From an uncultured Lachnospiraceae bacterium (lineage in GTDB: Bacteria > Bacillota > Clostridia > Lachnospirales > Lachnospiraceae): a stretch of 43,233 nucleotides of DNA. The DNA lies in assembly GCA_947652735.1 (NCBI GenBank), contig CANTEG010000019.1, forward strand, positions 1 through 43,233. The letters run 5' to 3'. A model generated the notes under the pieces. The model was not told the origin of the DNA and made no database searches. It saw nothing but the letters and a program-made list of their open reading frames with translations. This document shows positions 20,425-27,947 of the stretch, in pieces (within the stretch, counting starts at the first letter, position 1; every line of letters begins with the position of its first letter). The translations under genes were made by a program, and so were the position numbers.

Positions 20425-20489
20425 AATCAATCTATTTTGTTCAATTTCAATCTTCTCTGCCTGACAAGCCAATTATAGGAGGAAAATTG

Positions 20490-21359
20490 ATGAACAAAAA
20501 ATTGAACCGGCAATCAAACATTAAAAGCTTTGAGGAACTGGAGTTTAAGGATGATTTTATGTTTGGGGTTATTATGAGGAACCCTAAGTATTGCAAGCCG
20601 TTTTTAGAAACGATATTAGGTATAAAAATATCAAATATAGAATATCCGAAAACGCAGGAAACAATCGACATTACAGCAAACGCTAAAAGTGTGAGACTGG
20701 ATGTATACGTGGAGGATGAACGCAGTACCATTTACAACATTGAAATGCAGGTGTCAACAAATAAAAATTTACCTAAGAGAACCAGGTATTATCAGGGAAT
20801 GATAGACCTTAATATTTTGGAAAAGGGTGAGGATTACAAAAATCTGAAACGGAGCTATGTGATTTTTATTTGTACCTTTGACTTATTTGGCAAAGGAAGA
20901 CATATATACACATTTGAAAACAGATGCTTACAGGATTATGAAATAAGCTTGGGTGACGAAACAACCAAAATAATATTAAATACAAAGGGAACAATGGATG
21001 ATGTAAGTCTGGAAATGAAACGACTGTTAGATTACATAGACAGGCAGGTGGTGTCTGATGGATTTACAAGGGAACTGGAGACAGCGGTTGAATCCGTGAG
21101 AAGTAATGAGAAATGGAGGCTTGACTATATGACTTTGGAAATGCGATATAGGGAATTGTTTGAAGAGGCATTAGAACAGGGACTGGAGCAGGGGATAGAA
21201 CAAGGAATAGAACAAGGAATAGAACAAGGAATAGAACAAATGGTAATTAAGATGCTTAAAGCAGATAAGCTGTCGGTAGAAGAAATTTCCGCATATTCAG
21301 AGCTTACGGTTGAGAAGGTACGGGAATTAAAGCAACAAATGGAACAAGGTGTGTTATAA
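20490..21359 (+). CDS. Rpn-family PD-(D/E)XK nuclease (putative recombination-promoting/transposase-like)
   Basis: A 289-residue protein of the PD-(D/E)XK nuclease family often labelled transposase. The N-terminal signature 'ELEFKDDFMFGVIMRNPKYC' (about 14-33) is typical. The nuclease core has 'VRLDVYVEDE' (Asp) and 'YNIEMQ' (ExQ), which match the D...ExK/Q catalytic pattern. The C-terminal part (about 225-285) is helical and includes four to five EQGI repeats from a 12-bp tandem DNA repeat. E. coli Rpn proteins are Ca-stimulated DNases that promote RecA-independent recombination; the role here is inferred. Start ATG 20490 lies 7 nt after AGGAGG; a TTG one codon earlier is less likely. Monocistronic. 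Confidence 0.85.
   Translation: MNKKLNRQSNIKSFEELEFKDDFMFGVIMRNPKYCKPFLETILGIKISNIEYPKTQETIDITANAKSVRLDVYVEDERSTIYNIEMQVSTNKNLPKRTRYYQGMIDLNILEKGEDYKNLKRSYVIFICTFDLFGKGRHIYTFENRCLQDYEISLGDETTKIILNTKGTMDDVSLEMKRLLDYIDRQVVSDGFTRELETAVESVRSNEKWRLDYMTLEMRYRELFEEALEQGLEQGIEQGIEQGIEQGIEQMVIKMLKADKLSVEEISAYSELTVEKVRELKQQMEQGVL
21180..21239 (+). repeat. 12-bp in-frame tandem repeat
   Basis: Four copies of GG(A/G)ATAGAACAA (21192-21239) follow one diverged copy (21180-21191). Each adds Gly-Ile-Glu-Gln to the protein. The nearly identical copies suggest recent slippage; because the unit is a multiple of three, copy-number changes keep the frame. Confidence 0.9.
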
Positions 21360-26299: not shown

Positions 26300-26543
26300 A
26301 CAAAACCTCCATTCTTGGGCATCAGCAAATGGGCTGATACGGTATGTCATGTTTTCATGGAAAACCTGAACAATACATAAAGTAGCTAATAAAATTAGCC
26401 CTTTGAATATAGGATGAGCAAATGACATAAAATTATGTAGTAAATTGTTGCCAAAACATATAAAGTAATGTAGAATTGTGGTTGCAAATGCCTTAGTGAT
26501 TGCAGACGTTTGTTTGAAATTTGTCATTTTACAGGAGGATATC

Positions 26544-27947
26544 ATGGGCGGTTTTTTTGGAGTTGCATCAAAGGATGATTGTGTGTTTGATTTGTTTTTT
26601 GGAACGGACTATCATTCACATTTAGGAACAAGACGAGCTGGTCTTGCAGTATACGGAGAGGATGGATTTAAAAAATCAATTCATAAAATTGAAAATTCAC
26701 CATTTAGAACAAAGTTCGATAAGGAAGCGAATTCTATGAAAGGAAACATGGGTATCGGATGTATCTCAGATTATGAGGCGCAGCCTATACTTGTGCGTTC
26801 CCATCATGGCTCATTTGCCATAACAACAGTTGGAAAAATAAATAATGCAGATGCCATTATAGAAGATATTTTAAAGAACAACGCTCATTTTTTTGAAATG
26901 AGTAATGGTGAGATTAATGCCACAGAGCTTGTGGCTGCAATTATTGACCAGAAAGAAAACTTTATAGATGGAATAAAGTATGCACAGGATATAATTGAAG
27001 GCTCCATGTCCATGCTCATCCTGACACCGAAAGGAATTTACTGTGCACGTGATAAGTTTGGAAGGACACCGATAGTTTTGGGCAAAAAGGATGGGTCAAG
27101 ATGTGCTGCATTTGAGAGCTTTTCGTATTTGAATTTAGGGTATTCCGCGGATAGGGAGCTTGGACCGGGTGAAATCGTTGTCATGACTTCTGAGGGAGTA
27201 AAGACGCTTGTGCAGCCAGGAAAAGATATGAAAATATGTACATTCCTTTGGATTTATTACGGATATCCTTCTGCTTCCTATGAGGGCGTCAGCGTGGAGC
27301 AGATGCGGTACAAATGCGGAGAGGCACTAGCAAAAAGAGATAATGTTAAGCCTGATATTGTGGCAGGCGTGCCTGATTCAGGAACGGCTCACGCAATCGG
27401 ATATGCAAATGCATCAGGTGTTCCGTTTTCAAGACCATTTATAAAGTATACACCTACATGGTCCCGTTCTTTTATGCCGACAATACAGAGCAAACGTGAT
27501 ATGATAGCAAAGATGAAGATGATACCTGTTGAACCGTTAATCAAGGATAGAAGCCTGCTTCTTACGGATGATTCCATTGTAAGGGGGACACAGCTTCGGG
27601 AAACAACAGAATTTTTATATGAAAGTGGTGCAAAGGAGGTTCATATAAGGCCTGCGTGTCCGCCGCTTATATTTGGATGTAAATATTTGAACTTCTCACG
27701 TTCAAACTCTGAGATGGAGCTGATTACAAGAAAGGTTATAAAAGAGCTTGAGGGTGAAGATGTATCTGATGAGGTGCTGAAAGAATATGCAAACCCTGAC
27801 TCAGAAAAATATGAGAAGATGGTTGATAAAATTTGTGAAAAACTGAATTTTACATCACTCAGATTTCACAGACTGGATGATATGATAGAGTCGGTCGGAA
27901 TAGACCCATGTAAGCTCTGCACTTACTGTTGGAGCGGAGAAGAATAA
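26544..27947 (+). CDS. PurF-like amidophosphoribosyltransferase homologue lacking glutaminase residues
   Basis: A 467-residue homologue of PurF, which makes phosphoribosylamine from PRPP and glutamine. The phosphoribosyltransferase half is good: PRPP loop 'LTDDSIVRGTQ' (340-350). Cys232, Cys379 and the C-terminal CKLCTYC (456-462) sit where Bacillus-type PurF holds its 4Fe-4S cluster. The N-terminal Ntn domain is altered: the nucleophile Cys after Met is Gly ('MGGFFG' for the usual MCGxxG), 'GHxRYST' is replaced by 'GIGCISD', and the 'HNGNL' oxyanion motif is 'TVGKI'. It should not hydrolyse glutamine; an ammonia-dependent or non-purine role is possible. CAGGAGG precedes ATG 26544; upstream codons are discounted. 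No pur genes adjoin. Confidence 0.88.
   Translation: MGGFFGVASKDDCVFDLFFGTDYHSHLGTRRAGLAVYGEDGFKKSIHKIENSPFRTKFDKEANSMKGNMGIGCISDYEAQPILVRSHHGSFAITTVGKINNADAIIEDILKNNAHFFEMSNGEINATELVAAIIDQKENFIDGIKYAQDIIEGSMSMLILTPKGIYCARDKFGRTPIVLGKKDGSRCAAFESFSYLNLGYSADRELGPGEIVVMTSEGVKTLVQPGKDMKICTFLWIYYGYPSASYEGVSVEQMRYKCGEALAKRDNVKPDIVAGVPDSGTAHAIGYANASGVPFSRPFIKYTPTWSRSFMPTIQSKRDMIAKMKMIPVEPLIKDRSLLLTDDSIVRGTQLRETTEFLYESGAKEVHIRPACPPLIFGCKYLNFSRSNSEMELITRKVIKELEGEDVSDEVLKEYANPDSEKYEKMVDKICEKLNFTSLRFHRLDDMIESVGIDPCKLCTYCWSGEE

Follow-up and report, generated by a model that had tools for sequence, protein, structure and literature searches.

Amidophosphoribosyltransferase (PurF; EC 2.4.2.14) catalyzes what textbooks give as the committed step of purine synthesis, and it is described as glutamine-dependent. 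A flexible loop of canonical PurF is thought to help ammonia transfer, and in Bacillus-type PurF four cysteines bind a 4Fe-4S cluster. Among class II amidotransferase relatives, the beta-lactam and carbapenam synthetases have lost glutaminase function, and beta-lactam synthetase has gained a new reaction. In crenarchaea, according to excerpts of PMC3261824, a PurF paralogue without the N-terminal Cys (PurF') is encoded beside purF and other purine genes, each species studied has one gene of each cluster (purF and purF'), and PurF' was put forward, as a hypothesis, as an ammonia-dependent phosphoribosyl pyrophosphate (PRPP) aminotransferase. The same excerpts state, citing Mei and Zalkin 1989, that E. 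coli PurF without its Cys still uses ammonia. Here, we analyzed a purF paralogue, called PurF2, at positions 26544..27947 (+ strand; 467 aa plus stop) of a 43,233-nucleotide contig (CANTEG010000019.1, hereafter the window) from an uncultured Lachnospiraceae bacterium (GCA_947652735.1) whose genome (2.77 Mb, 40 contigs) is scored 100% complete. We infer both its reaction and its nitrogen source: with a probability of about 0.72, PurF2 is a glutamine-independent, ammonia-dependent PRPP aminotransferase that makes phosphoribosylamine for purines.

An earlier note on this DNA, made from its letters alone, had described a PurF homologue with a dismantled glutaminase site. We counted residues over homologues with >40% identity and >380 aligned residues (155 found, 133 distinct); another homologue set was cut at ≥45% identity. 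Residue tables and the alignment place Gly2 (26547..26549, + strand, as are all PurF2 features below) where PurF has its Cys1 nucleophile, just as the note had read it, and of the 133 distinct homologues 118 have Gly and 15 have Ser at this position. We considered Ser as a substitute nucleophile, but this is unlikely, given that none of the 133 retains Arg73 or Asn101. The note had also described a change of 'GHxRYST' to 'GIGCISD'. Loss of the site stood, but the letter-for-letter change did not: the alignment at residues 70-76 (26751..26771) combines His71 to Cys with an 8-residue deletion of the glutamine loop (E. coli 73-80), and because this loop is shorter, 133/133 homologues have no residue aligned with E. 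coli Arg73 or Thr76. In the oxyanion segment, TVGKI (residues 95-99; 26826..26840) replaces HNGNL, as first reported. Arg26 is Leu in all 133 homologues, the window included, His71 is Cys in 122, His100 is Thr in 129 and Asn101 is Val in 125 (Val, Ile or Thr in all 133), while Asp127 is still Asp in a single homologue and is replaced in the window. PurF2 has lost Arg73, Asn101 and Asp127, the glutamine-binding and oxyanion residues of E. coli PurF. The remodelled N-domain instead carries new near-invariant motifs, DYHSHLGT and GIGxISD. A longer open reading frame could start at a GTG at 26478; we rejected a wrong start masking an upstream Cys because homologues start at MGG or MSG and the remaining glutamine residues are gone as well. 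Judged from these replacements, use of glutamine by PurF2 is improbable.

The phosphoribosyltransferase half revealed the opposite pattern. The PRPP loop (DDSIVRGTQ, residues 342-350; 27567..27593 in the alignment) lies within an intact TDDSIVRGTQ (341-350), in agreement with the earlier note, and DDSIVRGT together with the flexible-loop Lys and Arg is kept in 131-133 of 133 homologues per column. The flexible loop itself (residues 301-326, KYTPTWSRSFMP..Q..R...A.MKM; 27444..27521), identified from residue tables and modelled with low confidence, keeps Lys301, Arg308, Phe310, Gln315, Arg318 and Lys325. Also retained, as the note had claimed, are the cluster-type cysteines: Cys232 (27237..27239) and Cys379 (27678..27680), each present in 133/133 homologues, and the pair in CTYC (27918..27929 in the alignment), Cys459 in 133/133 and Cys462 in 132/133 (the remaining one is an unresolved letter). 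All four align with cysteines of 16/16 canonical PurFs from related genomes, whereas E. coli PurF has the first alone. PurF2 thus has the four cysteines of Fe-S type PurF and may carry a cluster.

Profile and fold comparisons place this combination of loss and retention in a single chain that joins an N-terminal nucleophile (Ntn) domain to a type I phosphoribosyltransferase fold, as in PurF. The class II amidotransferase-type Ntn domain (residues 1-229; 26544..27230), catalytically dismantled by the residue tables, scored above the Pfam GATase_7 cut-off and gave fold matches over residues 2-228, with beta-lactam and carbapenam synthetases among the fold matches of the protein. The phosphoribosyltransferase domain fell below its Pfam cut-off (20.6 vs 26.3 bits), as did the whole protein against the NCBIfam purF equivalog TIGR01134 (184.2 bits, cut-off 350). 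Its sequence relatives in the PDB are PurF enzymes (1ao0, E 1.3e-48). A structure model backs the overall fold only, with predicted local distance difference test (pLDDT) values below 50 at residues 241-244, 300-328, 345-349, 377-387 and 462-467. The second, canonical purF that the earlier note had suggested looking for is present in the window's genome; its product is 31% identical to PurF2 and has Cys, HVRYST and HNGNL intact.

PurF2 is conserved under purifying selection, with a ratio of nonsynonymous to synonymous substitution (dN/dS) of ~0.04; against a near relative (L010; dS 0.77, dN 0.029), the ratio was ~0.06 for the N-domain and ~0.02 for the phosphoribosyltransferase half. With the replacements fixed among 133 homologues at such a ratio, we rejected decay or a strain-specific mutation, and the note's own refuting case is thereby excluded. 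In a tree of 71 rows, a very long branch with support of 100 separated 54 paralogues from 17 canonical PurFs (E. coli included). Most named close relatives belong to the Lachnospiraceae, and relatives also occur in three Bacteroidales records (51% identity) and Peptoclostridium acidaminophilum (59%). On the tree, presence or absence of canonical purF switches at least 10 times; the count falls to 6 without purF-less genomes below 90% completeness and to 5 if the 92% complete G530 is also dropped.

The distribution of PurF2 was scored in 196 genomes of the window's order (order sample) and 398 genomes of its phylum (phylum sample). In the order sample, PurF2 was found in 41 genomes (G127 counted), canonical purF above cut-off in 157 and purD in 171. 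Every carrier had purD (41/41 vs 130/155 non-carriers; Fisher 0.003), and canonical purF was missing from 12/41 carriers vs 5/130 purD-positive non-carriers (Fisher 2e-5). This enrichment persisted when only genomes of ≥90% completeness and ≤5% contamination were counted (8/34 carriers vs 2/102 purD-positive non-carriers; 2e-4), and incompleteness alone would be expected to produce ~2 absences in 41 carriers, or 0.8 in the 35 with a completeness of ≥90%. The 12 purF-less carriers (G180, G017, G046, G067, G169, G183, G075, G154, G103, G111, G167 and G127) have purM in 11 cases and, likewise in 11, a purH-type gene. Searched more broadly with TIGR01134, these 12 yielded, besides PurF2, only amidotransferase-half matches (profile positions ≤230), and the control for this search detected a divergent Bacteroides PurF-like protein. 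Within one genus (g51), G046 has PurF2 only, G077 both genes and G121 canonical purF only. The phylum sample held 28 carriers. In several lineages PurF2 appears to be the only PurF left, an apparent replacement. In a separate observation, G019 (scored 100% complete) has purD and purM above cut-off, yet a search down to E 1e-8 gave no PurF-like match.

These absences bear on the likeliest alternative, that PurF2 is a non-catalytic or regulatory paralogue that tunes purine flux, either by assembling with canonical PurF into mixed oligomers or by sensing PRPP or nucleotides. In its favor, the two genes usually coexist, and in several relatives PurF2 adjoins canonical purF or shares an operon with it; but 12/41 order-sample carriers retain purD with no canonical purF found that could be regulated, and the residues of the PRPP site vary no more than those of canonical PurF, although a mere sensor need not keep them all. 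We thus regard a regulatory role as unlikely. On the simplest account PurF2 is catalytic: as the sole copy found in some related genomes, with the part that releases ammonia from glutamine lost and the part that builds the product kept, it probably uses free ammonia.

Gene neighborhoods of relatives link PurF2 to purine genes. In L200, from a 99% complete genome, the order is purE, purC, PurF2, purM, purN, purO-like, 5-aminoimidazole-4-carboxamide ribonucleotide (AICAR) formyltransferase, with canonical purF on another contig, and PurF2 therefore occupies the purF slot. In L204, the order is purE, purC, purF, PurF2, purM, purN, purO-like, AICAR formyltransferase, purD, purL (from an open reading frame list and a family scan, as L204 was among seven loci missed by the greedy gene caller, with L067, L074, L086, L091, L199 and L208), and in L026 it is purC, purF, purB, PurF2, purA. 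The purO-like proteins of L200 and L204 score under the inosine monophosphate (IMP) cyclohydrolase cut-offs, while the remaining pathway neighbors pass their own. PurF2 and canonical purF lie together near purine genes in L204, L026, L038, L048 and others, although not at the window locus. Across 137 distinct homologues, 132 of which have an upstream gene in view, the directly upstream same-strand gene is purB in 12, purE in 7, carB in 5 and purC in 3; neighbor groups were defined by BLAST clustering with named representatives, and the purC of L201 is below its family cut-off. We also considered a thiamine-linked role (aminoimidazole ribonucleotide passing to ThiC), which we rejected as a ThiE-like gene occurs in just 4 loci of the context set. 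In one locus (L066, 4528-6968), a 530-aa protein with a ThiE-like start is followed by a ThiC-like gene (both by sequence likeness) ~2 kb downstream of PurF2, and a thiC-purF operon, whose purF could be canonical or PurF2, is known in Clostridium ragsdalei from an excerpt of PMC6505512. Separately, pepT lies downstream of PurF2 in Bacteroides finegoldii (L178 9001-12904, then gcvT) and in Peptoclostridium acidaminophilum (L179 8001-10800), an adjacency common to two phyla.

Operon position also bears on a second alternative, that PurF2 transfers a phosphoribosyl group to another small amine as nucleophile, by analogy with beta-lactam synthetase. The new near-invariant motifs DYHSHLGT and GIGxISD may suggest a new ligand, and synthetases of that type are among the fold relatives; against this stand the purine operon positions, the purF slot included, and the confinement of order-sample carriage to purD-positive genomes. 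This alternative is quite improbable, and of the earlier note's suggestions we do not favor a non-purine phosphoribosyl enzyme, because in the order sample PurF2 occurs only with purD and its commonest upstream genes in relatives include purB, purE, carB and purC. The note's ammonia-dependent enzyme is supported by indirect, converging evidence: PurF2 stands alone in some purD-positive genomes, belongs to purine operons in relatives and adjoins a carB without carA, and nitrogen-assimilation loci of carriers contain canonical purF.

Each of 6 genomes searched has two or three carB-type genes, and in 6/6 a carA-sized gene immediately precedes the higher-scoring copy (called carA by position and size, and by a glutaminase motif in 4/6), whereas the second type has no carA-sized gene beside it in these genomes. 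This orphan carB (L182-L185, L192, L221, L222, L224, L225 and L227) lies directly upstream of PurF2 in four genomes (G363, G206, G286 and, twice, G387) and away from it in G252 and G366. The E. coli carbamoyl phosphate synthetase large subunit alone produces carbamoyl phosphate with NH3 in vivo, according to the title of Rubino 1987 (via PMC6245113). The pairing could also be read as PurF2 being fed ammonia by a separate glutaminase or channelling partner rather than from solution, a possibility for which the carB neighbor in four genomes and the pepT neighbor in Bacteroides finegoldii and Peptoclostridium would speak, but this carB lacks an adjoining carA and no glutaminase was recognized among the 28 commonest neighbor groups (names by eye, some confirmed). 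The note's suggestion of another ammonia source found no positive evidence, and we consider it quite improbable.

In carriers, canonical purF often lies outside purine neighborhoods. In the window's genome (L228 3859-9255, G000 contig C4), it lies on one strand between glnN (type III glutamine synthetase) and amt (an Amt-PII fusion), and in G028 of the same genus (L229) the order is glnN, amt, purF. We thus compared purF context in all 29 order-sample carriers with canonical purF and in 34 of 125 purF-positive, purD-positive non-carriers, hand-picked from listed rows with carrier families preferred; neighbors were named by tblastn matches to reference proteins of other loci. Same-strand purine genes lay within ~5 kb of canonical purF in 10/29 carriers vs 33/34 non-carriers (Fisher 5e-8), or in 10/24 carriers without the five on short contigs (2e-6), and the difference held when stratified by family (p 0.0002). 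Same-strand glnN and/or amt accompanied canonical purF in 6/29 carriers (G000, G028, G041, G077, G135 and G151) vs 0/34 non-carriers (p 0.007). Counter to this trend, the purF of non-carrier G063 has no purine neighbor, and G173 has glnN and amt near purF but on the opposite strand.

Together, these data suggest a mechanism in which the phosphoribosyltransferase half of PurF2 would bind PRPP and free ammonia would attack C1 (PRPP + NH3 -> 5-phosphoribosylamine + pyrophosphate), the step with which de novo purine synthesis begins, while the Ntn domain, no longer hydrolyzing glutamine, may be retained as a remodelled structural or regulatory domain. Where both genes are present, PurF2 might act under abundant ammonia and glutamine-dependent PurF under scarcity, a split of work that can be likened to glutamate dehydrogenase versus glutamine synthetase/glutamate synthase. 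Plentiful ammonia would then leave canonical PurF free to be lost or to come under nitrogen-limitation control.

Several observations weigh against this proposal. Canonical purF is kept in 29/41 order-sample carriers and in 22/23 phylum-sample carriers outside the order sample, and PurF2 is therefore usually not the sole route. Of the purF-less carriers, 4/12 are only 68-88% complete, G127 shows just the last 203 residues of PurF2 (265-467) at a contig end, and the purF-less phylum-sample carrier G530 gave no purH match. Five purD-positive non-carriers, one scored 100% complete, also have no detectable purF, so that its absence is not proof of replacement, and the Fisher tests on carriers ignore phylogeny. 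Within the protein, the flexible loop is altered (Tyr329 to Pro, Asn327 to Tyr and a one-residue insert, Trp306), and Thr374 next to the PRPP loop is Gln. In family f2, all three carriers that have canonical purF retain the gene within complete purine operons. PurF2 has no purine neighbor in the window, and a scan of the window and 40 loci found no purine riboswitch at the gathering threshold but yielded tRNAs, one fluoride and three cyclic di-GMP riboswitches. In the window, PurF2 is flanked by a D-2-hydroxyacid dehydrogenase gene upstream and by Hsp20, rhomboid and citrate synthase genes downstream; further away, 20487-21359 encodes a PD-(D/E)XK family transposase/nuclease (PDDEXK_2) with an EQGIEQGIEQG repeat near its C-terminus.

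Beyond the enzyme itself, we lean, with reserve, toward a broader picture in which purine synthesis can start without glutamine, widely in the window's phylum and in Bacteroidales as well: an ancient glutaminase-dead PurF takes free ammonia straight into phosphoribosylamine, is the sole PurF in several lineages, while canonical PurF is displaced from purine operons and in places joins a nitrogen-scavenging glnN-amt operon, and forms with orphan carB an ammonia-fed module heading the purine and pyrimidine pathways. If true, a natural ammonia-only PurF, sole in some lineages, would alter models of purine and nitrogen economy for gut and other anaerobes, annotations as amidophosphoribosyltransferase (as in two named records of PurF2-type proteins) would need correction, and the 2011 suggestion on crenarchaeal PurF' would become directly testable in bacteria. 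In mostly non-subscription literature, only PMC3261824 was plainly relevant to earlier descriptions of the bacterial clade, which is no proof of absence; a bacterial clade apparently replacing canonical purF, its pairing with orphan carB and the move of canonical purF to nitrogen loci appear to be new.

Compared with known systems, PurF2 shares with canonical PurF (TIGR01134) the full-length fold, the PRPP loop, the flexible-loop Lys and Arg and the four cysteines, and its relatives share the purine operon context. It differs in the loss of the nucleophile Cys, the glutamine loop and the oxyanion Asn, in the loss of the binding Asp in 132/133 homologues, and in its score (184 vs 350 bits), its 31% identity to the genome's own PurF and its separate deep clade. 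By sequence, PurF2 is thus a PurF paralogue that we do not class as PurF, because defining features of the family fail. The beta-lactam and carbapenam synthetases are likewise class II amidotransferase relatives, found among its fold matches, but have an AsnB-type synthetase half and no phosphoribosyltransferase. Orphan CarB, like PurF2, is a glutamine-dependent synthase stripped of its glutaminase and expected to use free NH3; unlike PurF2, it has an unrelated fold and reaction, and it is the genetic neighbor of PurF2 in four genomes. The closest precedent, compared by description only, is crenarchaeal PurF': relatives of PurF2 are similarly PurF-like, lack the N-terminal Cys and coexist with purF near purine genes, whereas PurF2 is bacterial and is also present in nitrogen-related contexts and in genomes that gave no canonical purF.
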